NCBI GenBank assembly: GCA_029268515.1
Contig: JAQWNP010000006.1
Span: forward strand, 62,001-126,000
DNA: 64,000 bases
Source of the DNA: Phycisphaerales bacterium
GTDB taxonomy: Bacteria > Planctomycetota > Phycisphaerae > Phycisphaerales > SM1A02
Reading direction: 5' to 3'
The notes beneath the pieces are model-generated. The model searched no databases, was not told the origin of the DNA, and saw nothing but the letters and a program-made list of their open reading frames with translations. Below are positions 35,004 to 59,595 of this stretch, piece by piece (within the stretch, counting starts at the first letter, position 1; the number at the start of each line of letters is the position of its first letter). A program made the translations under genes and the position numbers.

Positions 35004-35053
35004 TAGGAATCGCATCCACCTGCGATATACTTTCTAACTGGGAGATGGATGAG

Positions 35054-37933
35054 ATGTTCGCCTCAGAAGAAAAGTATGTCTTGACTCGATTTGGCTCGAT
35101 ACGATCCTTCGCTTTCGGTCTGCTCCTGATCGCCAGTGGCCCCTTTGTTCTGCCTGCACACGCAGATCCTGAGCATGGCATTGACTTTAACCGAGATGTA
35201 AAACCAATCCTTGCCCAGCACTGCTATCTGTGTCATGGTCCTGACCACACGACACGCAAAGGTGAGCTTCGCCTGGATGTGCGAGAGTCTGCCACGACGA
35301 AACGACCCGGATTCGGTGCTGCAGCGATAAGGCCAGAAGAGGCAACCAAGAGTCTCTTGATTAGGCTTGTGAAAAGGCAAGACGAGTATCGTATGCCACC
35401 AATCGATCGCCCTAGACTAAGCGCACAAGAGATCGCAACTCTTACCGAGTGGATAGACCAAGGCGCCATCTACGATACCCATTGGGCATGGAAAACTCTA
35501 AACAAGAACGATACACCTCATGTTGATAACACTTTGTGGCCAACAAATGACGTGGATTCGTGGATTCTAAAAGGGCTTGAGTCGTCTGGGCTAAGTCCCG
35601 CACCACCTGCAGACAAAGCAATGCTCATGCGACGCGCGATGTTTGCGGTCATTGGCCTACCACCAACACCACAACAGATCGACTCATTTGTTTCAAATGC
35701 AGATCCTAATGCATATAACAGATTGGTCGATGAGCTCCTTGATTCCCCTGCCTATGGCGAGAAATGGTCCCGTCATTGGCTCGACCTGATGCGCTATGCG
35801 GAATCCTATGGCCATGAATTTGACTATCCGATTTCATACGCATGGCGCTATCGAGACTATCTGATTCGGACATTGAATGATGACTTGCCATACGACCAAA
35901 TTGTCCGCGAGCATATTGCCGGTGACTTAGTAAGCGATCCACGTCTGCATCCACAGCGTAGAACCAATGAATCTGTGCTTGCAACAGGCGCTTGGTATTT
36001 GGGCCAAGCTGTGCACGCGCCCGTTGACGTACGCCTCGATCAGGCAGAACGATACGATGATCAGATCGACACCATGACCAAAGCATTCTTGGGTGTCACC
36101 ATTAGTTGTGCTCGTTGCCATGACCACAAGTTCGATCCTTTTTTGACAAAGGATTATTACGCACTGGCTGGATTCCTTCGTAGCTCACGAGAGAACTTGG
36201 CTTATCTCGACCCAAATGCCACCATTCAAGAGACCATTCTTGAGATCATGTCAGTACATGATCATGTAAATAGCACCATTGATACGTCTACACAGATCCT
36301 GCCTGATACTGATCCAGATGATCAGTCCAACGATATTGTTGACATTGTGATTGCTGACTTCGATACGACTGAACCTAAGTGGTACGAAAGTGGACACGCT
36401 TTTGTGGGCAACCCCCATCCCATAGGGCATTGGTCTGGGCGTAGAGAAGGATCTCCACGGGTTGACAGAACCATGGTTGATAGTGGTGTTCTCTCATCGA
36501 AGCTCGAAGGGCGTTTCTCGTCACCAACCTTCGAACTCGCCCTGCCATTTGTCAACTATCGTGTTCGTGGAAACGGAGGACAGGTTCGACTGATCATTGA
36601 TGGATACCGAATGGACATCCATAACCCTCTTCTCTTCGAAGGAGTGTCGCAAAAAGTAAGCGTTCCTGAGGAAGATGGCTGGACAACGATCTCGCAAGAT
36701 GTCACTCGACATCTTGGCCACCATGCACACATCGAACTCATCGATGACGCTCCAGACGGTTTTTTGGCCGTCGATAGGATTTGGCTCTCAGAGACCAACC
36801 CCGCAGACGACCAGAACATGACCACTGCGGCGATTACGTTCACCGAAGATTTTGATGATTCTGAGATCTCGGAGAGCTGGGCAGAGATATCCAAGCTCGT
36901 AGAATCACTACCGAGGCCACTGCGGGCGATGACGATGCAAGATGGATCGCCAATGGATGAGTACATTTTTGTACGTGGTGATCATCGTGACAATGGCGGG
37001 GCTGCTCCGCGGAGTTTTATACAAGCACTTGGCGGTAAACCTATCAAATCGACTGGGTCAGGCAGATTGGACTTGGCAGATGATATGTTCTCCCATGCAT
37101 CTCACTTGATCGCACGAGTATACGTTAATCGCGTTTGGCACCATCTTTTCGGACAAGGCTTGGTTAGAACCACGAGCGACTTTGGCGCCATGGGCGAGTC
37201 TCCGTCGCATCCAGAGCTTCTTGACGTCCTTGCTATAGACTTCATGAAGGACTGGTCTATCAAGCGTCTGATTCGCAAAATCATGCTCTCGAAGACTTAT
37301 CAAATGGCTGCCATAGAGCATGATCCGAGAGCACGCGATGTCGATCCTGATAACCGACTTCTACACCACTTCCCGCTGCATCGTCTTGATGCGGAGTCAA
37401 TTCGCGATGCTGTGCTAGCGATCAGCGGCCAGCTCGATACCACAATGTATGGACCGCCGGTACCCACACATCTCACCTCTTTTATGACGGGCCGTGGTCG
37501 TCCGGGGAAGAGTGGACCACTGGATGGTGAAGGACGTCGTAGCATTTACTTAGCGGTGCTACGTAATTTTCTACCCCCATCTATGCTTTCTTTTGATGTG
37601 CCAAACGCATGTACATCCGTCGGACGTCGCGGAAATTCCAACGTTCCAGCTCAAGCACTCGCACTTATGAATGGGCCTTTTCTTCGGGAGCAAGCTGACC
37701 GCTGGGGCGAGGCCATTGTCAGATCGATGCCTGACAGTCGACAGGACCGTGTCCAGACAATGTACTTGCAGGCCTATGCCCGACCACCGAAAAAACAAGA
37801 ACTCGACCTCGCTATGTCTTTCGTGGCAGAGGTTGCCACCAATCAAGAGGTCGATCTTGATACCGATCCAGTACCTTGGGCTACACTTGGACATGCTCTA
37901 CTAAACACAAAGGAATTTCTCTTTATACAGTAG
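35054..37933 (+). CDS. Planctomycete cytochrome c / DUF1549 / DUF1553 protein
   Basis: About 959 residues with a signal peptide (FAFGLLLIASGPFVLPAHA), a PSCyt1 domain with a heme-binding CYLCHG motif, then DUF1549 (GEKWSRHWLDLMRYAES, and CARCHDHKFDP) and C-terminal DUF1553 (HASHLIARVYVNRVWHHLFG, HRLDAESIRDAVLA). Between the two DUFs (about 430-600) is an insert with strand-rich, carbohydrate-binding-like sequence (YRVRGNGGQVRLIIDGYRM). The ATG at 35054 has GGAG 9 bp upstream; the ATG at 35045 is possible. Such proteins are abundant in Planctomycetes and are usually followed, as here, by a DUF1501 gene; they are thought to act on extracytoplasmic polymers. Confidence 0.92.
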   Translation: MFASEEKYVLTRFGSIRSFAFGLLLIASGPFVLPAHADPEHGIDFNRDVKPILAQHCYLCHGPDHTTRKGELRLDVRESATTKRPGFGAAAIRPEEATKSLLIRLVKRQDEYRMPPIDRPRLSAQEIATLTEWIDQGAIYDTHWAWKTLNKNDTPHVDNTLWPTNDVDSWILKGLESSGLSPAPPADKAMLMRRAMFAVIGLPPTPQQIDSFVSNADPNAYNRLVDELLDSPAYGEKWSRHWLDLMRYAESYGHEFDYPISYAWRYRDYLIRTLNDDLPYDQIVREHIAGDLVSDPRLHPQRRTNESVLATGAWYLGQAVHAPVDVRLDQAERYDDQIDTMTKAFLGVTISCARCHDHKFDPFLTKDYYALAGFLRSSRENLAYLDPNATIQETILEIMSVHDHVNSTIDTSTQILPDTDPDDQSNDIVDIVIADFDTTEPKWYESGHAFVGNPHPIGHWSGRREGSPRVDRTMVDSGVLSSKLEGRFSSPTFELALPFVNYRVRGNGGQVRLIIDGYRMDIHNPLLFEGVSQKVSVPEEDGWTTISQDVTRHLGHHAHIELIDDAPDGFLAVDRIWLSETNPADDQNMTTAAITFTEDFDDSEISESWAEISKLVESLPRPLRAMTMQDGSPMDEYIFVRGDHRDNGGAAPRSFIQALGGKPIKSTGSGRLDLADDMFSHASHLIARVYVNRVWHHLFGQGLVRTTSDFGAMGESPSHPELLDVLAIDFMKDWSIKRLIRKIMLSKTYQMAAIEHDPRARDVDPDNRLLHHFPLHRLDAESIRDAVLAISGQLDTTMYGPPVPTHLTSFMTGRGRPGKSGPLDGEGRRSIYLAVLRNFLPPSMLSFDVPNACTSVGRRGNSNVPAQALALMNGPFLREQADRWGEAIVRSMPDSRQDRVQTMYLQAYARPPKKQELDLAMSFVAEVATNQEVDLDTDPVPWATLGHALLNTKEFLFIQ

Positions 37934-37958
37934 TCAAACTGGAAGAGAATCGTTGTCT

Positions 37959-39380
37959 ATGGCTCACTGCAAACGCTTTCATCATCAAGAGTATTCTCGA
38001 CGCGCCATGCTTGGCCAGTGTGCTCATGGATTTGGAGCTGTCGCGTTAACGGGACTGCTCTGCGATCAAGCAGTTGCTGATGGGCATCGTGCTCATGCCC
38101 CACTACTTACCAATGGATCTTCAGGGGCCAAGAGTGTGATCTTTCTCTATATGGATGGAGGTCCCTCTCAGGTCGATACTTTCGATCCGAAACCTCGGTT
38201 GTGGCGAGATCATGGCAAGCCCTTCGCCATGGAGATGGAGCGTACACAATTCAACGACAATGGCACAACTCTTCGCTCTCCCTGGACTTTTCGAAGATAC
38301 GGTGCATCGGGAATTCCCGTGAGCGATCTCTTTCCTCACGTTGCTGAGTGTGTTGATGACCTTTGTGTTATTCGATCGATGACATCGAACTTCTCAGAAC
38401 ACACCAATGCAAATTATTTCCTTCACACAGGCATGGGTATTGCCGGACGACCAAGTATGGGCGCCTGGGCCAGCTACGGTCTCGGACGAGCAAATGAAAA
38501 TCTTCCCGCATTCGTGGTACTCAACGGCGGCTTGACGCCTCCAGGTGGACTCGATTGTTTTTCGAGTGGTTTCTTACCCGCGCAACATCAAGCATCGGTC
38601 GTGTTAGCTGGCCAAGGTGGATTTCCTAATATTGAACGACTTGAACGAAGTGCGGCAGACCAAAAGCACTCGTTGGACTTCATTCGTCAGCTTGATCAAG
38701 ACTATCAGGAGAGAATTGGTCGATCCGATCCTCTTGAAGCGGCCATCGCTAATCATGAACTTGCTTTTCGAATGCAATGGTCTGTTCCCGAGCTGATGGC
38801 AATTGATGGTGAATCGAAAGCAACCAAATCTCTGTACGGCCTTGATGAAAAGTATGAGCCGACTCGCATCTACGGAAGGCAATGTCTACTCGCCCGCCGT
38901 CTTGTAGAACGTGGTGTTCGTTTTGTCGAACTCACCTGTCCTGCACTGGAAGGTGATCGATGGGATCAGCATGACGGGCTCAAAGAGGGGCACGAGAACA
39001 ATGCACGTGCTGTCGATCAACCGATCGCTGGACTTCTCAAAGACCTAAAGAGCCGCGGCCTCCTTGATCAGACATTGGTGATCTGGGCTGCAGAATTTGG
39101 CAGAACGCCTTTCGCACAAGGTGTTGATGGTCGCGATCATAATCCATTCGGCTTTACGATCTGGATGGCCGGTGGTGGTATTCGAGGTGGAATGACCTAC
39201 GGTTCAACAGATGAGTTTGGCTATAAGGCCATTGATCGACCTGTTGAAATTCATGACCTTCATGCCACGATGCTTCATGCCGTAGGCATTGATCATCGAC
39301 AACTTACAATGCGGCATGGTGGGCGCGATATGCGCCTGACCGATGTACATGGCCACGTACTTCACGACATCTTTTCTTAA
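37959..39380 (+). CDS. DUF1501 protein with TAT signal
   Basis: The 473-residue protein begins with a twin-arginine signal (YSRRAMLGQCAHGFGAVALTGLL), so it is probably folded before export. DUF1501 is related to the alkaline-phosphatase/sulfatase fold. Visible blocks are FLYMDGGPSQVDTFDPKP near the start, NFSEHTNANYFLHTG, and the C-terminal VIWAAEFGRTPFAQGVDGRDHNP, which holds likely metal ligands. A TTG six bases upstream is an alternative start. It follows the DUF1549/DUF1553 gene by 25 bp, a standard planctomycete pairing. Its exact reaction is not established. Confidence 0.9.
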   Translation: MAHCKRFHHQEYSRRAMLGQCAHGFGAVALTGLLCDQAVADGHRAHAPLLTNGSSGAKSVIFLYMDGGPSQVDTFDPKPRLWRDHGKPFAMEMERTQFNDNGTTLRSPWTFRRYGASGIPVSDLFPHVAECVDDLCVIRSMTSNFSEHTNANYFLHTGMGIAGRPSMGAWASYGLGRANENLPAFVVLNGGLTPPGGLDCFSSGFLPAQHQASVVLAGQGGFPNIERLERSAADQKHSLDFIRQLDQDYQERIGRSDPLEAAIANHELAFRMQWSVPELMAIDGESKATKSLYGLDEKYEPTRIYGRQCLLARRLVERGVRFVELTCPALEGDRWDQHDGLKEGHENNARAVDQPIAGLLKDLKSRGLLDQTLVIWAAEFGRTPFAQGVDGRDHNPFGFTIWMAGGGIRGGMTYGSTDEFGYKAIDRPVEIHDLHATMLHAVGIDHRQLTMRHGGRDMRLTDVHGHVLHDIFS

Positions 39381-39387
39381 ACGCGAT

Positions 39388-40365
39388 TTAAGACTTTGCA
39401 GGTGATCTTGAAGCCTTAGGCGAAATCGCTACGCAGCCAACACTCTCAAGTAACTTCTTTGTTTTGAGAATGCCCTCTTTCTCAGAGACTTGCCCGCCCT
39501 CATATTCAATCCCAACATATCCGTTATAACCAGCATTGCGGACGATTTTCATCATCCGAGCATAGTCGGTAGTTGTCTCTTGTCCGTCAGCATCAAAAGC
39601 TCTTGACTTCGCACTCACTGCTTTTGCATAAGGCATCAACTCTTTGACGCCTTTATATCGATCGTACCAGACGCCTTCTGACATTTGGAAGTTTCCAAAG
39701 TCTGGAAGTGTTCCACAATTCGGATTGTTGACTTCACGCATCACCGCTGCTAACCACGACCCATCTGAAGACAGGCCACCATGATTCTCCACGATGACGC
39801 TCATTTTTTGAGTGGCACCATATTCTGCTAACTGACGTAAGCCATCAGCTGCTCGATGCATCTGCTCAGTTCGCGTGCCTTGCGAGGCAGCATTAACACG
39901 TATCGCATGACATCCAAGGAATTTGGCGGCGTGTATCCACTTGTAATGGTTCTTGACTGCTTGCTTACGTGCGACAGGGTCTGGATTCCCCAGTTGACCT
40001 TCTCCATCAACCATAATGAGCAAACTTGTTACGCCATGACTATCAGCCATATCTTTGAGCTTTGCAAGATACCCATCATCTTCCGCCTTACCACGATAAA
40101 ACGTACTTACATACTCAACTGCGTTCAGGCCATATTCTTGAGCCGTCACCCTTGCAAACTCTAGTGGGTCGAACTCTTTGGCATTAATAGCACGATGCAG
40201 TGACCATTGTGCTAATGAAATTGGAAGCGGGGATAGATCTTCCGCTACATCATCTGCATCCCATATCGTCCCCAAGCTAGCCCTACTAACGATGCCAATG
40301 GCCGCAGCAGCGCTGCACCATTGAATCGCTGCTCTACGAGTTATACAGGTGTCCTGGGATTGCAT
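39388..40365 (-). CDS. Xylose-isomerase-like TIM-barrel protein with TAT signal
   Basis: The 325-residue protein has a TAT-like signal ([18 protein letters not shown]) and an AP-endonuclease-2/sugar phosphate isomerase TIM barrel. Characteristic segments are [38 protein letters not shown] with a likely metal-binding Glu, [10 protein letters not shown] and YVGIEYEGG. Exported members are common in Planctomycetes and are assumed to act on sugars. It converges with the DUF1501 gene with only 7 bp between the stops. Confidence 0.86.
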
Positions 40366-43726: not shown

Positions 43727-43906
43727 AAATGCTCCTCTTCCTGGGCATCATGCCCTGACAATTGAAGATACCAATGATGGTACCAGCCAAGCTGCTGCTG
43801 GTGGGCCTCTGGGGTGCCAACCCTGCCCCTGGAGCACCGATCCTCTGGCTATCGATTCATAGAGGGCCTAGCGGTATCATGGAAGATCTGCACAGGAGCG
43901 AATCAA

Positions 43907-45136
43907 ATGACCATCCAAGCTATTACATCTGAGGAAATGACCGCCAGACGAGCTGCTGTGATGACTGCCCTGGACGGGTCAGTCGCAGTCGTTTTTGCCT
44001 CAGATCCGTCTGCGGCGCACGCGGGTGGCTTCCGCCCCCACCCACACTTTGAATACCTCACCGGCATCATCGATGAACCCGGCGCCCTACTCATCCTTGA
44101 TCCGGGCAGTCTAGATCCCCGGCGGCGCGTGATGCTCTTCCTTCAGCCACGGAATCCTGAGGCTGAACACTGGGATGGATACCGCGACCCGATCAATGCG
44201 GCCATGCGCACTGCGACGGGTATTGATGCGATCTACCGTTTAGGGAGCTTCCCCACGTTCCTCAACCAGGCTGTCCGCCGATCAAAGTCACTGGCCTGCC
44301 TTCACCCCTTTGCACTACATACCCAACCCCCGTCACCTGACCTGGCGCTTTTTAACGAGGTCTGCCAGCGCATTTGTGGAACGCAAATTGTCGATCGAAC
44401 GGAAGTGCTCGCCAACCTTCGCGCCACGAAGTCTGAATCTGAAATTGCAATTATTCAGCAAGCAGTTGATATCACAGCGACGGGTTACGACGCTGTCATG
44501 CGTTCTGTGAAACCTGGCATGAACGAGTCGGATGTTCAGACTTGCATTGAGCATGCCTATTTGGTTAATGGTGGCCAGGGCCCTGCCTACGACTCTATTG
44601 TCGGCGCCGGCATTAACTCAACAGTGCTTCATTACATCGCAAACAACCAACCGATTGCTGATGGTGATCTCATCTGTATCGATTCTGGAACAAGACTTGG
44701 CTCTTGTAATGGCGGCTATGCGGCAGACATCACGCGCACCATCCCCGCCAATGGAAAATTCACTGATCGACAACGAGAAATCTATGAAATCGTGCTTGAA
44801 GCCGAGTTAGCTGCCATCGCAATTGCCCGCGCCGGCGTCACCTTTACTGAACTCAACCAAGCGGCGCGTGGTGTGATCGAGAAAGCCGGCTACGGCAACT
44901 ACCTCGTTCACGGCATCGGTCATCATCTTGGTCTGGAAGTCCATGACATTACGCCCGAGGGTCCACTCAAGGCTGGCGCCATCATCACCATCGAGCCAGG
45001 GATCTATCTCCCTGATGAAAAGATCGGCATTCGAATCGAAGATGACATTCTCATCACCGACAGTGGTTCTAAGAATCTCTCGGAAGCGATTCCTAAATCG
45101 ATTGATGACATCGAGCGCCTCATGGCTGATCGGTAA
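43907..45136 (+). CDS. pepP: Xaa-Pro aminopeptidase (M24B)
   Basis: It releases N-terminal residues preceding proline from peptides. The ATG at 43907 has AGGAG upstream; a longer frame from 43814 lacks such a signal. The 410 residues comprise an N-terminal creatinase-like domain (HPHFEYLTGIIDEPGALL) and a pita-bread catalytic domain. Its five metal ligands lie in CIDSGTRLG, YAADITRT, GIGHHLGLEVHD, TIEPGIYLP and IRIEDDILIT. The last nine codons and the stop lie in copy 1 of the 73-bp direct repeat; the same end sequence, without the gene, recurs at 51922. Confidence 0.93.
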   Translation: MTIQAITSEEMTARRAAVMTALDGSVAVVFASDPSAAHAGGFRPHPHFEYLTGIIDEPGALLILDPGSLDPRRRVMLFLQPRNPEAEHWDGYRDPINAAMRTATGIDAIYRLGSFPTFLNQAVRRSKSLACLHPFALHTQPPSPDLALFNEVCQRICGTQIVDRTEVLANLRATKSESEIAIIQQAVDITATGYDAVMRSVKPGMNESDVQTCIEHAYLVNGGQGPAYDSIVGAGINSTVLHYIANNQPIADGDLICIDSGTRLGSCNGGYAADITRTIPANGKFTDRQREIYEIVLEAELAAIAIARAGVTFTELNQAARGVIEKAGYGNYLVHGIGHHLGLEVHDITPEGPLKAGAIITIEPGIYLPDEKIGIRIEDDILITDSGSKNLSEAIPKSIDDIERLMADR

Positions 45137-45181
45137 TTTACGATTCTGTTGCAAATCGATCGACGTCGACTGGGACGTGAA
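45109..45181 (+). repeat. 73-bp direct repeat, copy 1 (left end of cassette)
   Basis: It is identical over 73 bases to 51922-51994. It contains the last codons and stop of pepP and, on the other strand, a duplicate of the last codons and stop (TTA at 45138) of the addA-like gene. It includes a 10-bp palindrome, TCGACGTCGA. The inner flank leads within 6 bp into the stop codon of the first cassette gene. Confidence 0.97.
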
Positions 45182-45187
45182 AATGGC

Positions 45188-46567
45188 TCAGCGATCAACG
45201 CGCGGATCCCAGAAGTCGAAACGAATCGTGGCGAGTTTTTCGAAATCCGCCTTTGGCAACGTCACGTAAGCGCGAATCAGAATCGTGTCAGTAGTGAATT
45301 GATCTAAATTAAAACGAGGCGTGATCACAATTGGGTTCTTACCCGTGTCCGTGTCAGAAAACTGGTATCCCGCAAAGCTTCCCAGGATCCATGTACTTAC
45401 AGTACCCCCCGATGGTCGGCCGAATGGCTCGCTAAAAGGGATCGGATCCTTGTTACCCTTAGGGTACCGTTCATCACCCCACAGTGTACGTTTAAATAGC
45501 GAGACCTCGTCTTGCGTGAGTACATTGCCTGAAGAAGATTCAAGCACAACCCGTAAATGGGGAAGTGAGTTGCGTTGGAAGTAAGGGTCTGGGTTGTTTG
45601 AATTCGACTGCCACTTAACGAAAGGTTCGATGAGATCAGCATTGAGCACGAAGGCATCAAATCCTTCGTGCATACCATACTTGTCGCGTGACCGGCTAAG
45701 AAACACCACAAACTGCTGTGGGTTGGGTTGTTCTAACTGGACCTGTAGTGCACCTTGCTTGGCTCCAAGTTGGCTAGAACGCGTTGACCACCTTCGCTCT
45801 ATCGTGGGGTATGCTGTGAACGCCTGTCTTTTTTCTTCTACGTAAGCTTTGTCGTTGCTCCCTGAGTTAACCTCAGCTGGCAGTGACTTGAGAGCAACCG
45901 CACGCAATACCTTCTCCAGATTCGGATAGACCTTCTCGTAGTATGTTTCAAGGTCGTAGTAGATCTGGATGTTGAGTGCGATCAAGACGTTGTCCCCGAC
46001 CATCTTGATGTCGTCTTTAGGTGGCCTACCATCCTTGATTCGCTTGCCGTTACGATCAACCAGACGGGCGACTAACAACCGAGGCGCGAGGCCTTTAAAG
46101 AGTCGGTCAAGTGTCTCCGCCTGCAACTGAACATTGTCTTGATTTGCAGCAAGTTCGGCAGCCAACGATTCACCATCGATGTTCACTGCACTTAAGGCCG
46201 CGTCCTGAATCCGGCCGACAATCTGTGCTGGAACGATCGTTACTTCACATTCGACAACGATTTCGTCGCCTTCAAAGCGCTGATCGATCACCTTACTGGT
46301 CACACTCTCGGCATTGGAGAATGCTGTGATCGTCTCATTGACGACTTCTTCGTTCTCAATGACGGTATCTGCCTCGATATACTCTCCAACCACTTCACGC
46401 AGCGCGTTCATAATCGCATCTTTTCGCGCTTCGCCGATAGACCCGCCGCGACCGGTGGCATTGATTGTGATCGGCTCCACTTCTTGAGCGACGCTCGATG
46501 GACTCACACCTGTTATTGATAGAACGATGATCAATGCTGAGAGTAGATATGTTGCGTTGCACTTCAT
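45188..46567 (-). CDS. Cassette protein A: exported LPP20/FlgT-N-like domain protein
   Basis: The 459-residue precursor has a signal peptide (ALIIVLSITGVSPSSVAQ). Residues 33-120 form a domain with the pattern of FlgT-N/LPP20-like modules: ATGRGGSIGEARKDAIMNAL, REVVGEYIEADT, then VTSKVIDQRFEGDEIVVECEV. Residues about 135-230 (SLAAELAANQDN, RLLVARLVDRNGKRI, DGRPPKDDI, YYDLETYYEKVYPNLEKVLRA) align closely with cassette protein D, proving they are paralogues. The C-terminal half is strand-rich (FDAFVLNADLIEPFVKWQ). Function unknown; an envelope-associated role is inferred from export. Its ATG overlaps the small upstream gene by 4 bp. Confidence 0.85.
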   Translation of the reverse strand: MKCNATYLLSALIIVLSITGVSPSSVAQEVEPITINATGRGGSIGEARKDAIMNALREVVGEYIEADTVIENEEVVNETITAFSNAESVTSKVIDQRFEGDEIVVECEVTIVPAQIVGRIQDAALSAVNIDGESLAAELAANQDNVQLQAETLDRLFKGLAPRLLVARLVDRNGKRIKDGRPPKDDIKMVGDNVLIALNIQIYYDLETYYEKVYPNLEKVLRAVALKSLPAEVNSGSNDKAYVEEKRQAFTAYPTIERRWSTRSSQLGAKQGALQVQLEQPNPQQFVVFLSRSRDKYGMHEGFDAFVLNADLIEPFVKWQSNSNNPDPYFQRNSLPHLRVVLESSSGNVLTQDEVSLFKRTLWGDERYPKGNKDPIPFSEPFGRPSGGTVSTWILGSFAGYQFSDTDTGKNPIVITPRFNLDQFTTDTILIRAYVTLPKADFEKLATIRFDFWDPRVDR

Positions 46568-46797
46568 GCCATCTTCTCCTTCAGCTCACACTTTGCCATA
46601 GGTTTTCCCTCAAATGCGCCGCCGGGCTTTGGTGGTTTTTCACGTTCGACAAACGGTGGAAGTCCCCATGGAACATAAGTCCCGCCATACACCCCACCAG
46701 GTTCTGGCGTTTGATCCTCCGCGCGAATAGCTACTGCCGCGACCGAAAACAGTGTTATGAGCAATGTGACTGAAGCCAACAAGTTGGGATGAAACAT
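46564..46797 (-). CDS. Cassette small secreted Pro/Gly-rich protein
   Basis: A 77-codon gene whose TGA overlaps the ATG of cassette gene A (ATGA), the usual sign of translational coupling. The N-terminus is a good signal peptide (LLASVTLLITLFSVAAVAIRA, cleavage near AED). The roughly 50-residue mature part is rich in Pro and Gly (PEPGGVYGG, PKPGGAFEG) and ends Lys-rich. A related PGGAFG string occurs late in cassette protein D. No family recognised. It is the first gene of the leftward pair and could be a secreted partner of protein A. Confidence 0.65.
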   Translation of the reverse strand: MFHPNLLASVTLLITLFSVAAVAIRAEDQTPEPGGVYGGTYVPWGLPPFVEREKPPKPGGAFEGKPMAKCELKEKMA

Positions 46798-46874
46798 TAT
46801 TTAACCTCCGTCTGATATGATGAAAGCCTCGGTTTGTGAACACGCCTGCGTTTTAGAAACAGAGGTTACTTCAG

Positions 46875-48296
46875 ATGCTACCAGCTGAGAGAACCGTATT
46901 GACCGTGCTCGCTGTAATTTTTGCACTGACCGCAACACTGACAGCGCAAACGAAGCCAGAACTTGCGATGACGCTTCTTGAGCAGGCAAATCTCCAAGAC
47001 GAGATCGCCGGTGCTGGTATCGTTGAGTGGGATGGCAAGATGGCGCTGATTGCCGTAGGCGAAGGTATTCCGGCGAAAGATGCCACAACTGGTCCAGTGA
47101 GAGAACGTACCGCGAAGTTAGCTGCATTCACCGTCGCCAAAGGTGAGCTCATTAAGTATCTCAAAGGCATGGACATTACAGCCAGAACCGAGGTCGTTCG
47201 CCGCGTCATTACAACTGATACCAATGAAGGCTCATTGGCCGACCTGGAAGTAACCACAACTGAGTCATTTAACAGCCTTGCTGTAGGAGCACTTCGCGCT
47301 GCCATTCCGATCTCTTCAACCTACAACACCAATGAAGAAGTTGCGCGAACTGTTATTCTCTCGATACCTGAAGATGCCCGAGGATTTGATCGTTTGGGAC
47401 CAGGTGTACGTATTGCAAACTCAACTGAGCAAGCGATGGATGAACTTGAGCAAGAAGCCATTTCTGGTTCAATACCTCCTTCCGGTGCAACTGTTCTCGT
47501 GATACGGGGGGATACGCCAGATGAGACATGGATACTTGCTTGGGGTTCTGAACCATCTAGTGGGTCAATTCGTGTCGCTGGAACAAAAGCCAGGCTTCGT
47601 GCAGGCCGAGCACTACGTGCATTTGCTAGCGGTGAAGAACTTGAGGCGAGAGACTCGTTCTCTTCTGAGTTTGCAAAGCTGATCAAGCAGGGTGCGGATG
47701 CAACATCGGAGTTTGAAGCCGGGTCTGAATCACAAATGCTCTATGAGCGCACTCAACGAAGCGCCATCGTAAAGACAAAATCTTCTGGTGTGCAAAGAAC
47801 GCTTCGACAAGCACGGCGCGTTGGCGATTGGGTGATCGTCTTTACCGGTTTTCAATATCAACTAGCAGCGCCGGGATCAGGTCCCCCTCCTGCAAACTGG
47901 GATGGAATTTCCAGATCATTTGAATCTGCCTTTGAAAAAGCAAAGACATGGTCACTTTCGGATCTAGATCCACCAGCAATCGGAACGAGCCATGCATTCG
48001 GTACACGAGCTGCTGGACCATGGGGCATTGGAGTTGCTGTTGCGCCAATACCAGAGGAAGAGCGTGTTAAGGCCGAATTAGCTGATTCACTGACCCTGCT
48101 CGCACGCGCTGCTGCCATAAGAGGTCTGGCGATTGCTTTGGGTCATGAAAATCGCGAAACTGTTGAAGCTAATATCATTGGTCAATTTAAAACACAGGTC
48201 TATGAAGATCATGGACGACTGCGTGTTTTTTGCTTGATATCAAATGATCAAGTTCAGGATATTAAAACTTCGGGTGCGAAGATCAATACAGAATAA
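46875..48296 (+). CDS. Cassette protein B: exported protein with LPP20-like repeats
   Basis: The 473-residue precursor has a signal peptide (RTVLTVLAVIFALTATLTAQ). Three stretches have the LPP20-like strand-helix pattern. The first is ALIAVGEGIPAKDATTG followed by a long helix and KGMDITARTEVVRR (about 55-160). The second is WILAWGSEPS, ARLRAGRALRAFASGEEL and DWVIVFTGFQ (about 215-330). The third is GIGVAVAPIPEE, LLARAAAIRGLAIALG and GRLRVFCLIS (about 380-465). GAGG lies 8 bp upstream of the ATG. It is first in the rightward three-gene run. Assignment to the LPP20 superfamily is by pattern only; function unknown. Confidence 0.8.
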   Translation: MLPAERTVLTVLAVIFALTATLTAQTKPELAMTLLEQANLQDEIAGAGIVEWDGKMALIAVGEGIPAKDATTGPVRERTAKLAAFTVAKGELIKYLKGMDITARTEVVRRVITTDTNEGSLADLEVTTTESFNSLAVGALRAAIPISSTYNTNEEVARTVILSIPEDARGFDRLGPGVRIANSTEQAMDELEQEAISGSIPPSGATVLVIRGDTPDETWILAWGSEPSSGSIRVAGTKARLRAGRALRAFASGEELEARDSFSSEFAKLIKQGADATSEFEAGSESQMLYERTQRSAIVKTKSSGVQRTLRQARRVGDWVIVFTGFQYQLAAPGSGPPPANWDGISRSFESAFEKAKTWSLSDLDPPAIGTSHAFGTRAAGPWGIGVAVAPIPEEERVKAELADSLTLLARAAAIRGLAIALGHENRETVEANIIGQFKTQVYEDHGRLRVFCLISNDQVQDIKTSGAKINTE

Positions 48297-48331
48297 CGTG
48301 CACTCTACAGCACAACTATGAGGATCATGAA

Positions 48332-49669
48332 ATGAAAAAATTACTTACCAGTTTGATAGCGCCAGTGTTCCTGTCAACCAGTATCTGTCTGGCCCAAGAT
48401 CTTGCTGACTTCGGCATCCCTGCTGCCTCTGACAATCCGGCTCAGGAGCGGACCGTCAAAGATCCTGCCGCGGTAACCACCACTGAAAACAGCGAACTCG
48501 ACGAAAAGGTCATCAGCGCAGCAACGACTCAAGATGCTGTGAACGCTGCCCAACAAGAGCTGATCGATAGTGGCGATGAGGCCCGGTTCATTAGCACTGG
48601 AAGTGGCCTGGGAACTGTTGCTGTTGGATATGGAAGCTACAACTTCGATGTTTCGAATGTCAATCTCAAGCTAATTGAACAACGAGCAGCATATCTTGAA
48701 GCAACACTTGAAGCCCGCACGAGTATGGCTGAGTTTTTGAGAGGGCTTTCGTTGGAAGGTAAACAAGAACTCGTCAAACAGTTCGACATGGTTGATGGTG
48801 GCGAGGAATCTTTAGCAAATATGTCTTCGATTTCCTCTGAGTCAATCAACGAACGTGTCAACGGTATGCTGCGCGGCGTCGTAATCTACGACGTCCAAGA
48901 TGATCCGCAGGAAGGTACTGTGTGTGTGACCGTCGTTACGACACCGAAAACACAGGGTGCGATTCAGGCGACTGGAAACAACACCATGATCGCTGAGAAT
49001 ATTGCTGACGGTCTCCAGGCAATATTTACAGAGGTAAAGGCTGGCCTTGTACCGCCAGATGGCGGCCGTGTCGTTACCGTACCCAGCTCAGGCCAGATTG
49101 CTTGGGTCGGGTTCGGCAGTGAGATCAACCGAACCAATCGTAACAAGACCTTACAGCGCGAACTCAAGCGAGAAGCTGTCGACACTGCAAAAATGCGTGC
49201 GCGCCGTTCGCTGCTCGCAGTTATTAATGGTGAAAACGTCAGCAAGGACTCCCAGCTCAACCAGGAACTTGAGAAACAGATCACCCAGTTCGATCGAATT
49301 CCCGGGGTTGAAGGAGAAGCGGGCATCGAACGCAAGGAAGAAGACGCAGTTTCTGCCTTCGCTCAACAGGTTAAAACACGTGCGTTCGGATCGACCACTA
49401 CGGGTACGCTCCCTCCAGGCGTAAGTGTCAAAAGCTACCAAAGCAAGGATGGCTCATGGAGCTACGCTGTCGCCATCTATACAGCGCAAGCAACCGACGC
49501 TGCTAAGAGCCTGGCACAAGTGATGGACGCCAACTCACCATTGGGTTCTGTCAGTCAGACACGTGGTTTCGAAACCAATCCGGATGGTTCTTTCAAGCGA
49601 GGTCCTGATGGTAATTTGATACCAAAGTCGATTGGTTCAGGTCGTGTCACCAAGGATGAAGACCTCTAA
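48332..49669 (+). CDS. Cassette protein C: exported protein with two LPP20-like domains
   Basis: The 445-residue precursor has a signal peptide (KKLLTSLIAPVFLSTSICLAQ). Two similar modules are visible. One is at about 95-215 (TVAVGYGSYNFDVSNVN, LEATLEARTSMAEFLRGLS, GVVIYDVQDD, VCVTVVTTP). The other is at about 250-385 (QIAWVGFGSEI, VDTAKMRARRSLLAVINGE, SYAVAIYTAQATDAA). Each follows a strand, a helix rich in A/R/E and closing strands, as in protein B. A Gly/Asp-rich tail (NPDGSFKRGPDGN) ends the protein. It follows gene B by 35 bp with GAGG before its ATG. Function unknown. Confidence 0.8.
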   Translation: MKKLLTSLIAPVFLSTSICLAQDLADFGIPAASDNPAQERTVKDPAAVTTTENSELDEKVISAATTQDAVNAAQQELIDSGDEARFISTGSGLGTVAVGYGSYNFDVSNVNLKLIEQRAAYLEATLEARTSMAEFLRGLSLEGKQELVKQFDMVDGGEESLANMSSISSESINERVNGMLRGVVIYDVQDDPQEGTVCVTVVTTPKTQGAIQATGNNTMIAENIADGLQAIFTEVKAGLVPPDGGRVVTVPSSGQIAWVGFGSEINRTNRNKTLQRELKREAVDTAKMRARRSLLAVINGENVSKDSQLNQELEKQITQFDRIPGVEGEAGIERKEEDAVSAFAQQVKTRAFGSTTTGTLPPGVSVKSYQSKDGSWSYAVAIYTAQATDAAKSLAQVMDANSPLGSVSQTRGFETNPDGSFKRGPDGNLIPKSIGSGRVTKDEDL

Positions 49670-49729
49670 GCTACAAACTTCAATTCCTGGCATTCCCGTC
49701 ATGATGATCGAAAGCGAGTGCTATTACCG

Positions 49730-51892
49730 ATGTCCCACGCTCACCATGTAATACAACGACGAACCCGGACGAGCATCATGGCACTGCTCGTGATGTTGAT
49801 ATGGCCAACCATGGCGTTACCGTCGATGGCAGCTTCGTTCGCGCAGGATGACTCCAAGTGGATCGAGGTCGAAGCTGAGGGGCGCGGTGCCACAGCCAAG
49901 GAAGCACGCAAGGCGGCCATGCTTGCGGCACTGCGCAAGATTGCTGGCGAGTTCCTCGTGCAGAACACTGTCATGGAAAATGACCAGATCACCGATGACG
50001 AGCTGCTGACATTCACCACTCAGAAGGCCTTTGAAAGTGAAGATCTAGAAGGCTTTCCCACCATTGAGGGTGATGGCACCTGGTACGTAAAGATGAAGAT
50101 CCGAGTCATCGCCCGTGATTTCAAGCAAATGATCGATCGCTTTAGACCAACGACGGTTACCGGCAAACAGACCGTCGAGGCCGAAGGGATCGGCAAATCC
50201 GCGGTCGAAGCTGAACGAAATGCCATTGCCAATGGCATTCGCCAGATCATCGGCGAGCATATTGACTCTGAGATCGTGATTAACGACGAGCGTGTGGTGA
50301 AGGATCTGATCAAGAGCTACACCACCAGCAAGAACGTCACCAGCGAGCGCATCGGAAACTTTCGGGTTGTAGGAGATGAAGTCGCAGTCACCATGCGGGT
50401 GACTGCGGAGCTGGAGCCCTTGTATGCAATGTTCCGCGAGCGCTCAACCAGTGCAACGGTGATTGATGGAGATGTCTTAGCTGCCGAGTTAGACCTGGCT
50501 CGTGACAACATCGTGGCACAAAGAAAGATCCTCGAAAATTTGCTTCTTGATCTTCCAACGCGACTGCTCATCGCAAGGCTAGTTGACCGCGATGGCAAAC
50601 CAATACTCGATGGGCGTCCCACTAAGAAAGATATGAGACCGATCGTGGGATCGGATCAAATAGCAATAGCCGTGAATATTGAGTGCTACTTTGATCTAGA
50701 AACCTTCTACACAAAAGTCGCACCTGCATTGAGTCGAGCACTCCATGCGATGTCAGAGTCTCATAAAGAAAATGTTTATCGCGTCTCTAAGGAAGACGAT
50801 CCAAATCAACCAAGCAGAACCTTGTTTACAGATGAACCGACTGTACCACTGGATTTTTCTGTGATGCCTTGGAAAGCCGAATTTTCGCCAGACTTATTTG
50901 AAGTCGTGCTCGCTCGGACGCGCAATGAAGATGGCTCTTTGGTTGTTTTCGACCGCTTTCTATTATCGACCGAGCTGTTGCTTGGGTTCACGAATGTCTG
51001 TCAACTGCAAGCACAGAAGGATTGGACTGATTCTGGTAAGTGGAGTCGCCTTGACATAGCGGTTTCTGTTGATTTTCTTGATGCAGATGGATTACTTATT
51101 CAATCCCAAACGCAATTTGCTAGCAGCACCTTCTGGCAGCCCTCTCAAAGGACCAATACCTGGGGCATAGACCTTCCAATTGATATTGGTAGCCGCTCTT
51201 CGCGCGAGTCATTCAATCTCCTAAGTCGTCTAAGTGGTGGTGATAAATACCGATTGATCATTCTTCCTGGTTTCACTCGCTTTCTAAATCTTGGAATCTT
51301 GGATAATCCTTCTTGGTTCTCTGACACCACCGTTTCCAGGTTTGAATTACGAATGAATGAATCGGATCTGGAAAGACTTGATCGTATTGAACTACATGGC
51401 CAGCTTGTTGAAATCGGCTACAGGAGACATGGGTCATCGGGGATCAAGAACATTGTGAATCCAGATATAGAGTCAAGGGCGCTTGGCTGGAAAGACGCCC
51501 AAGGCAACCCCATCGAGCCGGGGGGCGCCTTTGGGAGATCAAATCGATCAAGTAGAACCCGGGCCAATCGAGGATCTTCATCAAGCGCAAGTGGCCAGGC
51601 TCCGACCACCAACCAGGAATCACCGCGGCAAGCAGAGTTGAAACAGTTCGATGGACTGGTCTACAAGCTTGGTAACTATGCCATGAATGGCATCTGCGAC
51701 AAGGCCCGTTCGACCGCAGATGAACTTCTCTCGATGGATCAAGAGCTTATGAACGAAGATAAGCTGTGGCTCGGCATCACCAAAACTGGCCGCTGCCCCA
51801 GGGCGCAAAAGGAACTTCTCGAAAAGCTAATTGAGCTCTACCCAGATCGTCCTCGCACCAACACTGCCAAGAAAATGCTCAAGAAGCTTTAA
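49730..51892 (+). CDS. Cassette protein D: exported protein with tandem FlgT-N-like domains and TPR-like tail
   Basis: The ATG at 49730 gives a signal peptide (MALLVMLIWPTMALPSMAASFAQ, given as two parts MALLVMLIWPTMA and LPSMAASFAQ); a GTG at 49718 is possible. Two FlgT-N/LPP20-like domains follow: VEAEGRGATAKEARKAAM (about 44-130) and VEAEGIGKSAVEAERNAI (about 147-230). Next comes a region shared with protein A (RLLIARLVDRDGKPI, DGRPTKKDM, YFDLETFYTKV). A Ser/Arg-rich linker (SSRTRANRGSSSSASG) leads to a helical C-terminus that looks like TPR repeats (AQKELLEKLIELYPDRP). At 720 residues it is the largest cassette protein and possibly a scaffold for the others. Confidence 0.83.
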   Translation: MSHAHHVIQRRTRTSIMALLVMLIWPTMALPSMAASFAQDDSKWIEVEAEGRGATAKEARKAAMLAALRKIAGEFLVQNTVMENDQITDDELLTFTTQKAFESEDLEGFPTIEGDGTWYVKMKIRVIARDFKQMIDRFRPTTVTGKQTVEAEGIGKSAVEAERNAIANGIRQIIGEHIDSEIVINDERVVKDLIKSYTTSKNVTSERIGNFRVVGDEVAVTMRVTAELEPLYAMFRERSTSATVIDGDVLAAELDLARDNIVAQRKILENLLLDLPTRLLIARLVDRDGKPILDGRPTKKDMRPIVGSDQIAIAVNIECYFDLETFYTKVAPALSRALHAMSESHKENVYRVSKEDDPNQPSRTLFTDEPTVPLDFSVMPWKAEFSPDLFEVVLARTRNEDGSLVVFDRFLLSTELLLGFTNVCQLQAQKDWTDSGKWSRLDIAVSVDFLDADGLLIQSQTQFASSTFWQPSQRTNTWGIDLPIDIGSRSSRESFNLLSRLSGGDKYRLIILPGFTRFLNLGILDNPSWFSDTTVSRFELRMNESDLERLDRIELHGQLVEIGYRRHGSSGIKNIVNPDIESRALGWKDAQGNPIEPGGAFGRSNRSSRTRANRGSSSSASGQAPTTNQESPRQAELKQFDGLVYKLGNYAMNGICDKARSTADELLSMDQELMNEDKLWLGITKTGRCPRAQKELLEKLIELYPDRPRTNTAKKMLKKL

Positions 51893-51921
51893 CGCCCAAC
51901 AACCAAGAGCGACACCCTCTT

Positions 51922-51994
51922 CATCGAGCGCCTCATGGCTGATCGGTAATTTACGATTCTGTTGCAAATCGATCGACGTCGACTGGGACGTGAA
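51922..51994 (+). repeat. 73-bp direct repeat, copy 2 (right end of cassette)
   Basis: Identical to 45109-45181. On the minus strand it encodes the last codons and stop of the addA-like gene; on the plus strand it carries an orphan copy of the pepP C-terminal codons (ending RLMADR, stop). The first bases outside the shared stretch differ on both sides, so the repeat length is exactly 73. Confidence 0.97.
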
Positions 51995-54900
51995 GGTCAC
52001 GATGCAGCAGCATGAGCGATGTATCAATACAACTCACATCAATACTAAGTAGCTTCGACGCTGCAAAACGATAACCCGCTAGTTGTGGTGCATAGCGGTG
52101 CACCAGAAGATCAACTGCCTCTGGATTCTCTTCGTCAATGAAGTCTGTCTTATAGTCAATGACATGCGCAGAAACAATCTGCTCTCCCTCACGCCCAACA
52201 ATTAAACGATCAATAATACCACTCAATTGGTTTTCGAGCCGAATTGTGCGATGAGCAAAGTTTGTACCCGCTGGCACCTTAACCGCAAACGGTTGCTCAT
52301 TGCGCACCAGGCTTGTTGCCTTCGACTGTCCAGATGGCATTGCCAACAGCGCCTGCAGCTTGGGTTGACGCAACATCTCAAGAAACTCATTGGCCCACTT
52401 GTTCAGTAGCCCCGGCTCGATATGGTGATCATCTAATCGTGCTAACAACTGCGATTGGGTTGGCGCGGTCTCAAACCACTCAATATCACTTAACCATTCA
52501 TGCATCGCTGTACCACGGTCAAGTGTTGCTGACCGTCGTGGCTGAAGCACCTGATTGCCTTGTACAACGGTGCTGCCCTCAAGTTCTGATGGACTGACGC
52601 TGGCCAGTCCACGGCGATATTGGGCTGTTTCTGAAAGGCGTACCCGAGCAGTCTGCACTGGATGTCCGCTCACATCAGGCTCTTTTTGCTCTTGCAAACG
52701 ACCACCAATATTTTCAGCTGTTGCCTGCCCTGCCATCATGATCTTTTCGACGGGCATAGGGTGCTGATAAACCACTGAATCTGCGGGCGCGTGAACATCA
52801 CCTGTGAGTGCACAAAGCAGAACATCTGCATTGGTACTTCCGGCTTTCTTCTTGCTGAGCTTGGTTGGCTCTAGCACGATGTGTAATTCATATCTTGATC
52901 TTGTCATGGCCACATAGAGCACACATAAGGCATCGCTAATCGCATGCCCATAGGTACTGGCATACATCTCATTGAGTGTCTCATCAATTGGACAAAGTTC
53001 TCGAGAAAGACCTATCGACACTCGCGTTGGCGCTGCTAATGGGTCATCATTCTCCGTCATCAGTGATGCTCGGCGAACCAATGCACTATCAAGATCTGGA
53101 AGAATCACGATATCAAACTGAAGCCCCTTCGAAGCATGAATAGTCATTGCCTGAACATGAGCGGTACGGGGATTGCTTATTTTTGTTTTCTCAATGTGAC
53201 GAACCACATCGCTTGGTCGCATACCTGGCTCAAAGATATCATCTGTAAGAAAGCGTATTAACTGACTCATTCGCAACTGATCGTGTCCATCGAGATATGG
53301 CACCATTGATTCTGACCACATTCGAACTGACTGCGCATACCCTTCTTCAGCGAGTGTCGATCGTGCTTTTGCAATCCAACCAGAAAGCGCCTGCTCCTCA
53401 TCTGCTACATCGCCAATCACTTCTTTGTGCAATGGTGAATTCAGTACGTGGAAACGCGCTGTGGTCGAACCTGGCTGATCAATCATGCTCAGCAGCGATG
53501 TAACAAGTGTCACGGCCACCGAGTCGGTTAAAGGATTGCCGCCCCGCTCACTTGCTGCAATGGGCTGATCTCCAGTCCATAGATCATCGATAAACGAAGC
53601 AATTTCGCCCTTGGAATTACTTCGAAAGAGCACACCAATTGTTGCTGATGGCGCCGCTTTTACTGCTTGGCGTACAAGATCTGCCGCTTTTTCTGCTGTT
53701 GTTTGCTCTTGGGCAGATGTCACCAACTGAACCAAACCACGCTGATCGCGAAGTGAAGGCGCACTTGTATGTTGCGAGAAATGCTGCTCTTGCCATTTCT
53801 TGGCTGCTGCTATTGCAGCATCAACACTCGCGAGCGCTGGATTACGTGCAATATCTTCGAACACTTGGTTCACAACATCAAGTACGACTGGACAGGATCG
53901 ATAACTAATGTCCATCGATTCCACCGCGTCAGCAAGTGCGGGCAACTCATCTGGAAGTACCTCTAGTAATTCAGAACGCCCACCGCGAAACGAGTACAAG
54001 CTCTGCTTCGGATCACCGACACACATAAAGCTTCGATCCGATCCCTGACTTGATGCTGCGACTTCTCTTGCTAAAGGACGCAGCACCAACCACTGCTGCA
54101 GTGATGTATCTTGGAACTCATCAATCAGAAGATGATCAATAGCGCCATCTAGTTTGAAATACATCGCCTCGAGTCGCCCTAAGACGTTCGCCACCCGTAA
54201 ACGAAAGGTAATGTCGTCAAATCCATAGCAAGGATTCGTTAACCGAAGCGCCGCCAGTTGCAGCGCATATCGCTCGGTGAGTTGACGATACTGATGTGTT
54301 GATGATGCCGTTTCTAAAAGAATCGTCTGCCCTGCATGCTCTATGAGCGGTGCATAGAGATCAATAATCTCATCGGTAATCAGATTGTTCTTTGAACTAT
54401 ACGTCGGTTCCCCATTAAACACTTTTGTTGCCACGCCCGCTTTTAGAAAAGCACGCCAATCTTGTGATTTCGCTTTTTCGGCGTCTTTAAGTCGAGCCTT
54501 GTCGAACGAAGCGGTGCCATGAAACGGTGTTCTTTCAAGCGCTGCAATAGCATCTTGCAGCTGACTGCTGGTGAGCAACCGAGGTCTTGGAAACCAAGTC
54601 CACGCCTCCCGATCTGTTTCACGCACCAATCCATACGCTTCTTTCACAACTTCGACGATTGCCTTCGTTAAATCAGAACGATTAGCTCGCCGGTGAAGTT
54701 CAAAGAGCATGGTCTTGATATCACTGAGATGCTCTGCATCCCATAAACTTGCTACAGCTCGCTCTGTCAGTTCTTCTAACTCGACTTCATTTGCAATCGA
54801 CCAATCGAGTGGCATATCAAGATCAAATGAAAAGGCTTGCGCCAATTGAATAAAAAAGCTATCCAGCGTTGACACACGTATACGACCAAGCCTTGCCAAG

Positions 54901-55193
54901 AGATCGAGCAATACCTGCTCTAAGTGCTTTTGGGTTATATGGTCTGGTAGATCTGACTTGAGAGATTCAAAAGCCTTCTTATCAAGCACTGCTTCTGCCA
55001 AGGTCTGCAACAGCCGATCGCGAATCTCTCCTGCTGCTGCGCGTGTAAATGTCATTGCGCAGATTCGCTCGGGATGCTGGGCTAAATCTCCAGTGCAAAG
55101 CAGTCGCACAAAGTGGCGCGTCAAACGATACGTTTTTCCGGTACCTGCCGAAGCCCGAATAATGCGATGCGGAGATGCCATTAATGAGCTCAT
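51951..55193 (-). CDS. addA: AddA-like UvrD-family helicase-nuclease
   Basis: A 1080-residue DNA-repair enzyme that, with its partner, should process double-strand ends. It has Walker A RASAGTGKTYRLT (Lys20), motif II LLIDEFQDTSLQQW, GDPKQSLYSFRGGRSE (motif III), ASKGLQFDIVILPDL and AMTRSRYELHIV (late helicase motifs). A C-terminal PD-(D/E)XK nuclease domain carries GIIDRLIVGREG and VIDYKTDF. The ATG overlaps the addB-like stop (ATGA). Its 3' end lies in copy 2 of the 73-bp repeat; without the cassette it would end 1 bp from the pepP stop. Confidence 0.88.
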   Translation of the reverse strand: MSSLMASPHRIIRASAGTGKTYRLTRHFVRLLCTGDLAQHPERICAMTFTRAAAGEIRDRLLQTLAEAVLDKKAFESLKSDLPDHITQKHLEQVLLDLLARLGRIRVSTLDSFFIQLAQAFSFDLDMPLDWSIANEVELEELTERAVASLWDAEHLSDIKTMLFELHRRANRSDLTKAIVEVVKEAYGLVRETDREAWTWFPRPRLLTSSQLQDAIAALERTPFHGTASFDKARLKDAEKAKSQDWRAFLKAGVATKVFNGEPTYSSKNNLITDEIIDLYAPLIEHAGQTILLETASSTHQYRQLTERYALQLAALRLTNPCYGFDDITFRLRVANVLGRLEAMYFKLDGAIDHLLIDEFQDTSLQQWLVLRPLAREVAASSQGSDRSFMCVGDPKQSLYSFRGGRSELLEVLPDELPALADAVESMDISYRSCPVVLDVVNQVFEDIARNPALASVDAAIAAAKKWQEQHFSQHTSAPSLRDQRGLVQLVTSAQEQTTAEKAADLVRQAVKAAPSATIGVLFRSNSKGEIASFIDDLWTGDQPIAASERGGNPLTDSVAVTLVTSLLSMIDQPGSTTARFHVLNSPLHKEVIGDVADEEQALSGWIAKARSTLAEEGYAQSVRMWSESMVPYLDGHDQLRMSQLIRFLTDDIFEPGMRPSDVVRHIEKTKISNPRTAHVQAMTIHASKGLQFDIVILPDLDSALVRRASLMTENDDPLAAPTRVSIGLSRELCPIDETLNEMYASTYGHAISDALCVLYVAMTRSRYELHIVLEPTKLSKKKAGSTNADVLLCALTGDVHAPADSVVYQHPMPVEKIMMAGQATAENIGGRLQEQKEPDVSGHPVQTARVRLSETAQYRRGLASVSPSELEGSTVVQGNQVLQPRRSATLDRGTAMHEWLSDIEWFETAPTQSQLLARLDDHHIEPGLLNKWANEFLEMLRQPKLQALLAMPSGQSKATSLVRNEQPFAVKVPAGTNFAHRTIRLENQLSGIIDRLIVGREGEQIVSAHVIDYKTDFIDEENPEAVDLLVHRYAPQLAGYRFAASKLLSIDVSCIDTSLMLLHRDLHVPVDVDRFATES

Positions 55194-58161: not shown

Positions 58162-58773
58162 TTACCTAAGCCAGAGTGTAGAGATCCAGAGTTGCCGACC
58201 ATTCATCGGACCATCAAGAACTTCAATGCGTGCGAGATCGCCAATGCGTTCTAGCTCTATTGCTCTGGTGAACTTTGGCAACATTACAACACGGTTTGAT
58301 TCAAGCATGCCCCGAATTTCATGACGGCTACCATCACGAACCGCACTTTTAAAAGCATTGAAGTCTTCTGTTGAAGTAGTCGTTGGCACAGTGCTTCCCT
58401 CTGGAAGACCCACAACAATCCGCACAGGTATCTTGACTTCGATCACCTCAACAAGCTCTACTTCTTGAGCAGGATTTTCATCAATGAGTGTGACCTCTGG
58501 CTCTGGTTCACTCTTGACTTCGATCACCTCAACAAGCTCTACTTCTTGAGCAGGGTTTTCATCGATGAGTGTGACCTCTGGCTCAGGCTCACCCTTGACT
58601 TCCTCACCCATCACTTCAGTGATCGCCAACTGCACGATTTCATCTAATGAACGTGTTGACGCATTCACATCATTACTTTGTTTCGGTTGCGAATGACACC
58701 CCGCCACCAGGCTTACAACGCCTACCAGAAGCAACAATCGTGATATCGTCTGAAATCGCTTCGACATGCTCAA
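58162..58773 (-). CDS. Lipoprotein with duplicated 27-residue acidic repeat
   Basis: The 203-residue precursor has a lipoprotein signal (LLLLVGVVSLVAGC, lipid Cys26). Residues about 60-115 are two near-identical 27-residue units containing EVTLIDENPAQEVELVEVIE, followed by VKSEPEP or VKIPVRI. The acidic repeat probably forms an extended arm. The C-terminal 80 residues (GTVPTTTSTEDFNAFKSA... not in one run; then RGMLESNRVVMLPKFTRAIEL, read as RGMLESNRVVML and PKFTRAIEL) look globular, with an SH3-like end (ARIEVLDGPMNGRQLWIS). No family recognised. It follows addB on the same strand direction but upstream, with a 51-bp gap. Confidence 0.75.
   Translation of the reverse strand: MSMSKRFQTISRLLLLVGVVSLVAGCHSQPKQSNDVNASTRSLDEIVQLAITEVMGEEVKGEPEPEVTLIDENPAQEVELVEVIEVKSEPEPEVTLIDENPAQEVELVEVIEVKIPVRIVVGLPEGSTVPTTTSTEDFNAFKSAVRDGSRHEIRGMLESNRVVMLPKFTRAIELERIGDLARIEVLDGPMNGRQLWISTLWLR
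58432..58593 (-). repeat. 81-bp tandem repeat (two units) within lipoprotein gene
   Basis: Two in-frame 81-bp units start at 58432 and 58513, and a third begins with CTTGACTTC at 58594 before diverging. The units differ by only a few third-position changes, which points to a recent duplication by slippage or unequal exchange. The repeat number could vary between strains. Confidence 0.9.
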
Positions 58774-58965: not shown

Positions 58966-59595
58966 TTATTTTCCGCCGCCTGGTGCCGGACTACGTAGTG
59001 GCCCAGAACCGCTGCCACCAGGACTACGCGTCCAGATCTTGCCATCTGACCAGAAGACCGTGTTGGCAGCATTGTTGATATGACCAGTGATATTCTTTGA
59101 TGGAATTACTAACGAGTGAGCTCCACCAGCATGGCCCTTGATTGTGTTGCCATTTTTTAGTGTCGCCATGAAGTGATAGCCATTGTCATAAACTTTTACT
59201 TCGATTGGCTGCTTGCCGTTGTACCAAGTGCCAGAAATGTGGGTTTTTCCATCTGGGTATCGTGTCCACATACCACCGTCACTCCACTTAAGACGACGTC
59301 CGCCATCTTGGATTGTGCCGGTTCTTTTTTGACCCTTGACCTTAATCATCCAGGGACCTTGAAATTCTGCATTGTAATTCTTGCCATTCCCATCCTTAAG
59401 AATCACATCATTATTACCTTTGACAATGATGTAGACGGGCTTGTCATTCATGTTGTACCACTCACCTTCCATACCGGTGTAGTGATTAAAAGGTGCTGGC
59501 GGACGATGCTCTAATTGAGTTGCTGCAAAGAAGACTGCAGCACCTAACGCAATAACGACACCAACAATAAAAGACTTGACGTGAAAATGGCTCAT
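58966..59595 (-). CDS. Membrane-anchored protein with internally duplicated beta-rich module
   Basis: The 209-residue protein has one N-terminal TM or signal segment (FIVGVVIALGAAVFFAATQ). Two related modules follow. One is at about 43-113: GEWYNMNDKPVYI, then DVILKDGNGKNY, LKWSDGGMWTR. The other is at about 121-193: GTWYNGKQPIEVKVY, MATLKNGNTIKG, VFWSDGKIWTR. The shared G-x-WYN...WSDG-x-(I/M)WTR frame shows an internal duplication. A Gly/Pro/Ser-rich tail ends the protein. No named family recognised; an extracytoplasmic binding role is plausible. A strong terminator follows the gene. Confidence 0.75.
   Translation of the reverse strand: MSHFHVKSFIVGVVIALGAAVFFAATQLEHRPPAPFNHYTGMEGEWYNMNDKPVYIIVKGNNDVILKDGNGKNYNAEFQGPWMIKVKGQKRTGTIQDGGRRLKWSDGGMWTRYPDGKTHISGTWYNGKQPIEVKVYDNGYHFMATLKNGNTIKGHAGGAHSLVIPSKNITGHINNAANTVFWSDGKIWTRSPGGSGSGPLRSPAPGGGK

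Follow-up and report, generated by a model that had tools for sequence, protein, structure and literature searches.

A five-gene cassette between two copies of a 73-bp gene junction in a marine Phycisphaerae genome

Little is settled about the way in which new genes find a place in dense bacterial chromosomes when no element-borne enzyme takes part. A 64,000-nucleotide stretch of a Phycisphaerales genome (hereafter, the window) raises this question in a compact form: a cassette of 6740 bp (45182-51921; GC content 0.50) lies between two convergent housekeeping genes, pepP and addA, and both genes are intact. The genome that carries the cassette (denoted G000) is probably a metagenome assembly and consists of 3.2 Mb in 20 contigs, with 99.5% completeness and an estimated contamination of 4.2%.

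The duplicated pepP-addA junction

The cassette is bracketed by two direct repeats, 45109-45181 and 51922-51994, that are identical at all 73 of 73 bases. Direct comparison confirmed that this repeat, first noticed in a first-pass annotation of the window, is perfect and maximal: the first base outside differs on both sides, and in the next 60 bp only 13/60 and 18/60 positions match, that is, similarity stops abruptly. The 73-mer occurs in the 3.2-Mb genome only in these two copies, and its length is far above the 18-20 bp of the chance-level repeat pairs in the 1.59 Mb of this genome that were surveyed.

The 73-mer consists of the last 28 bp of pepP, a single base, and, on the opposite strand, the final 44 bp of addA. 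The copy on the left completes pepP (43814-45136, forward strand), which encodes an Xaa-Pro aminopeptidase with PF00557 and PF05195 domains, and additionally contains the 44 bp of the addA 3' end. The right copy completes addA (51951-55193, reverse strand), which encodes a RecB-like helicase-nuclease (UvrD helicase; TIGR02784), and retains a vestige of the pepP 3' end. When the flanks are joined through one copy of the repeat, both reading frames are restored, with the two stops 1 bp apart. The open reading frames and domain matches thus agree with the annotation on the composition of the repeat and on the intact convergent junction that the joined flanks recreate. As single-stranded DNA, the 73-mer showed no significantly stable fold (z -1.4).

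Two further exact repeats were observed in the window. One, of 43 bp (58431-58473 and 58512-58554; 81-bp spacing), is likely a tandem repeat within a gene; the other, of 23 bp (positions 873 and 2491), lies inside two similar stretches of ~805 bp that are 70% identical and 1618 bp apart.

The cassette genes and the empty site in a relative

The cassette contains five genes: c1 (45188-46567, reverse strand; 459 aa), c2 (46564-46797, reverse; 77 aa), c3 (46875-48296, forward; 473 aa), c4 (48332-49669, forward; 445 aa), and c5 (49718-51892, forward; up to 724 aa). Judging from the sequences, in which signal peptides were read by eye and not by a prediction tool, all five products likely start with a signal peptide and are probably exported. 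The c3 protein is a distant paralogue of c4, and c5 includes a part similar to c1 (37% identity). None of the five proteins produced a significant match in Pfam or NCBIfam, so that there is no recognisable recombinase in the cassette, as the annotation had claimed. The N-terminal domain of c1 might be LPP20/FlgT_N-like, given weak scores (Pfam FlgT_N, E 0.19; LPP20, E 0.02 in one member of the alignment) and the presence of Helicobacter pylori Lpp20 among the top Foldseek matches, which were not significant by E-value (c1 partly modelled, pLDDT 53). The predicted structure of c4 was too poor for use (mean pLDDT 34).

The cargo occurs in single copy and only rarely in the family, with c4 detected in 8 of 151 genomes and c5-like genes in 5 of 151. 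The block c1-c2-c3-c4 recurs in the same order and orientation, at another locus, in G075 ('Phycisphaerae bacterium isolate SP135'), where the proteins, including the small c2, are conserved at 45-70% identity. The plasmid search yielded one distant c4 homologue, on a Pseudoalteromonas megaplasmid, where it belongs to an operon-like run with genes for a lipoprotein of the LPP20 family and a protein with a murein transglycosylase domain. A pattern search of IMG/VR did not find the cassette in viruses. The recurrence in G075, the megaplasmid homologue and the rarity in the family together suggest that c1-c4 is a sparsely distributed gene block, probably related to the envelope, that moves between genomes.

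The only other genome of the same genus that was compared (G001; 89% complete; background DNA identity to G000 about 75%) contains the junction without the cassette. In its contig C137, pepP is followed by a single copy of the repeat, 72/73 identical to the 73-mer, and then by addA; c4 and c5 were not found anywhere in this 89% complete genome. An empty junction in a close relative was the check that had been proposed for an insertion that duplicated the junction and spared both genes, and the single-copy site indeed supports insertion of the cassette, or else its clean loss in G001. Beyond the genus, none of 28 loci from the family and order, some of which were cut off by contig ends, showed addA beside pepP, so that no further outgroup for the junction is available here; a scan of named genomes for AddA gave no match.

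In the neighbourhood of the locus, G000 and G001 are mostly about 68-79% identical, and identity rises to 95-98% across two tracts, at roughly 35000-39470 of the window and, in pepP, at about 43950-45184. The pepP tract (98% identical) extends through the 73-mer and stops about 1 bp beyond, at the cassette edge. The two tracts suggest that the lineages of G000 and G001 have exchanged genes, and leave the duplication unexplained. On one reading, a cassette-bearing, G000-like donor would have given G001 its pepP, with the exchange stopping where homology ended, at the edge of the cassette. Coupling of the insertion itself to an imported homologous tract was considered and rejected: it fits this locus but is not general, because the second site described below shows no such switch in identity.

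Comparable repeats elsewhere in the genome

We surveyed 1.59 Mb of G000 for direct repeats of at least 18 bp, 0.1-40 kb apart, with unrelated flanks. The lengths were bimodal, with repeats of 73, 47, 35, 33, and 26 bp and, below these, only pairs of 18-20 bp. The perfect 47-bp repeat (case 2; contig C6, 131090-131136 and 132697-132743) lies 17 kb from the pepP-addA cassette, past the end of the window. It corresponds to the end of one gene and the start of a cupin gene, which overlap, and it surrounds an insert of 1,560 bp with one gene, encoding a 493-aa GRAM+HNH endonuclease protein that, within the family, is present at full length only in G000. This site, too, is empty in G001, with about 89% identity on both sides. 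The 33-bp repeat (case 3; contig C6, 649097-649129 and 649662-649694) comprises the 3' ends of psd (phosphatidylserine decarboxylase) and a PHP-domain gene, which overlap, and brackets a 532-bp insert with a PQQ-propeller-like ORF; the insert begins with TTAA, through which psd keeps its last residue and gains a new stop.

The 35-bp repeat (case 4; contig C7, 25822-25856 and 26477-26511) is a candidate: it represents the 3' end of a GTPase-like gene, the insert is a small membrane-protein gene, and both versions of the gene end in FNV-stop (AATGTCTAG vs AACGTCTGA), although a tandem origin is possible, given the similar-looking neighbouring gene. Joining the flanks restored the reading frames in all of cases 1-4, the pepP-addA junction being case 1. 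The 26-bp repeat (case 5; contig C2, 144209/145416), around a methyltransferase-like ORF, is a doubtful member of the set, and repeats in contigs C4 and C5 were rejected as tandem paralogues or multi-copy sequences.

In 760 kb from three related genomes, the survey yielded a 49-bp tRNA-end island, a 26-bp repeat next to a tRNA, a single 27-bp candidate, and repeats of low complexity. With so few candidates in the relatives, G000 seems to be richer in such scars, on a small sample. The 49-bp repeat, which resembles a tRNA 3' end (G010, contig C1, 4885 and 13973; about 9 kb enclosed), probably marks an ordinary tRNA-integrated island.

A common att-like core was ruled out: the five repeats (26-73 bp) are unrelated, no shared core longer than 6 bp was found, and 6 bp is no more than shuffled sequences give. 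The cassette lacks terminal inverted repeats, and a DDE transposon was rejected in the absence of a transposase, inverted ends and a short, constant duplication, in line with the earlier remark that the duplication is unlike the usual target duplications of transposons. Classical non-homologous end joining is unlikely because Ku was not detected in the 99.5% complete genome. A possible template-switch intermediate, a 17-bp match at 59578-59594 of the window to the junction between the left repeat and the cassette (GACGTGAA|AATGGCTCA), was dismissed as not significant: random junctions give such matches in about 1 in 80 cases (~1%), and the other nine junctions were unremarkable.

Possible origin of the duplication and related systems

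Our preferred explanation, held with some reserve, is that a horizontally acquired five-gene cassette entered the pepP/addA junction by illegitimate recombination that duplicated a 73-bp target. The observations to be accounted for are the exact duplication, the empty site in the relative, the rarity of the cargo in the family, and the recurrence with other lengths and cargos; from these we infer the following enzymology. A strand being extended in replication or gap repair would leave the chromosome at one edge of the 73-mer and copy, or become joined to, incoming DNA; on re-entering the chromosome 73 bp behind the exit point, it would copy the junction a second time. Filling in a staggered break on both sides would have the same result. 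With 73 bases of the join copied, both neighbours stay intact, and selection would retain the insertions whose duplication spans the whole junction and breaks no gene. At tight or overlapping junctions, only duplication of the whole junction keeps both genes whole, so that such selection would yield the observed pattern.

The direct repeats with gene 3' ends are also typical of islands integrated by tyrosine recombinases, and the 73-mers could be attL and attR of a usual integrative element mobilised in trans, with the gene 3' ends as the att site. G000 encodes three tyrosine recombinases, of which two are probably Xer, and the relative G010 provides the 49-bp tRNA-end example. We nevertheless regard this origin as unlikely: in contrast to integrase-type islands at gene or tRNA 3' ends, the cassette encodes no recombinase, the other scars in G000 have unrelated repeats of 26-47 bp with no core common to the sites, and the one duplicated junction preserves both neighbouring genes instead of restoring one. 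Single-crossover (Campbell-type) integration of a circle with one copy of the junction, formed by an earlier loop-out in a related strain, likewise has a small chance of being correct. The 73-bp repeats would permit loop-out and re-entry, and gene exchange between G000 and G001 is visible in the 95-98% tracts against the background near 75%. Such a circle, however, must carry a cassette already linked to the junction and hence accounts for the spread of the allele but not for the first duplication, nor would it explain several unrelated scars in one genome.

Recombination between 73-bp direct repeats could also produce a precise deletion leaving one copy, as found in G001, in which case the cassette would be old in the genus. 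This scenario appears quite improbable, as the cargo is missing from nearly all of the family, case 2 is empty in G001 as well, and the duplication itself would still need explaining. An assembly artefact, in which one repeat copy is an overlap from joining contigs of different strains, might be suspected from the 20 contigs, the estimated contamination and the short contigs of G001 that break near the locus, but is very improbable: there are four scars of differing length, each at a gene junction with the frames preserved, both repeat-to-cassette joins would have to exist in the reads, and the separately assembled G001 has the empty form at two sites. The first-pass annotation had left the mechanism open between template switching, a circle carrying the junction and an unknown element. 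The further cases in G000 argue for a general illegitimate process over a single circle or a single element. More tentatively, this lineage may possess an active process by which single genes or small operons, unrelated to one another, are inserted time and again at tight junctions, with target duplications of 30-75 bp, no element-borne enzyme, and the neighbours left working.

In Neisseria, gene sets that lack mobility genes and lie between conserved housekeeping genes are known as minimal mobile elements, and homologous recombination in the flanks is presumed to spread them. The pepP-addA cassette resembles them in its setting and its lack of a recognisable recombinase, whereas target duplication is not part of their definition. 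In Arabidopsis, ordinary genes that have transposed are likewise flanked by direct repeats, of more than 30 bp, with the repeat sequence present at the orthologous site of a sister species; the model discussed for them is recombination of a circle, long target duplication being an alternative (PMC2869330), although that system is eukaryotic.

The closest parallel is 'insertion with long target duplication', reported from H. pylori genomes (Nobusato et al. 2000, Gene 259:99). As outlined in later papers (PMC1643837, PMC3031569, PMC3874152), the target duplications there are long and variable (of the order of 100 bp) and often go together with restriction-modification genes. In both cases, as far as these accounts describe the Helicobacter insertions, genes without a transposase or integrase of their own lie between long target copies of variable length and are recognised against an empty strain; here, the flanking repeat is exact (73/73), two sites are empty in G001, and the lengths vary (73, 47, 35, and 33 bp). 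Our cases differ from the outlined ones in that they come from a marine Phycisphaerae genome, with duplications of 33-73 bp at tight or overlapping gene ends, and in their cargo: an exported-protein operon, an HNH-nuclease gene, a propeller-like ORF, and a membrane-protein gene. Restriction-modification genes, a frequent association and not a strict criterion, are absent from case 1, and case 2 carries the HNH nuclease.

The phenomenon is thus already named but unexplained, and is found here with cargo other than restriction-modification genes and in several instances in one genome; a limited literature search revealed no earlier report of such an insertion in this lineage. If an active process of the kind outlined above exists, it would represent a general route of gene capture that needs no element-borne enzyme and keeps both neighbours working. 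Since one genome offers several scars, and a relative has the empty site for two of them, the long-target-duplication route, which has rarely been studied, can be tested beyond Helicobacter; the scar set also shows that its cargo need not be restriction-modification genes.
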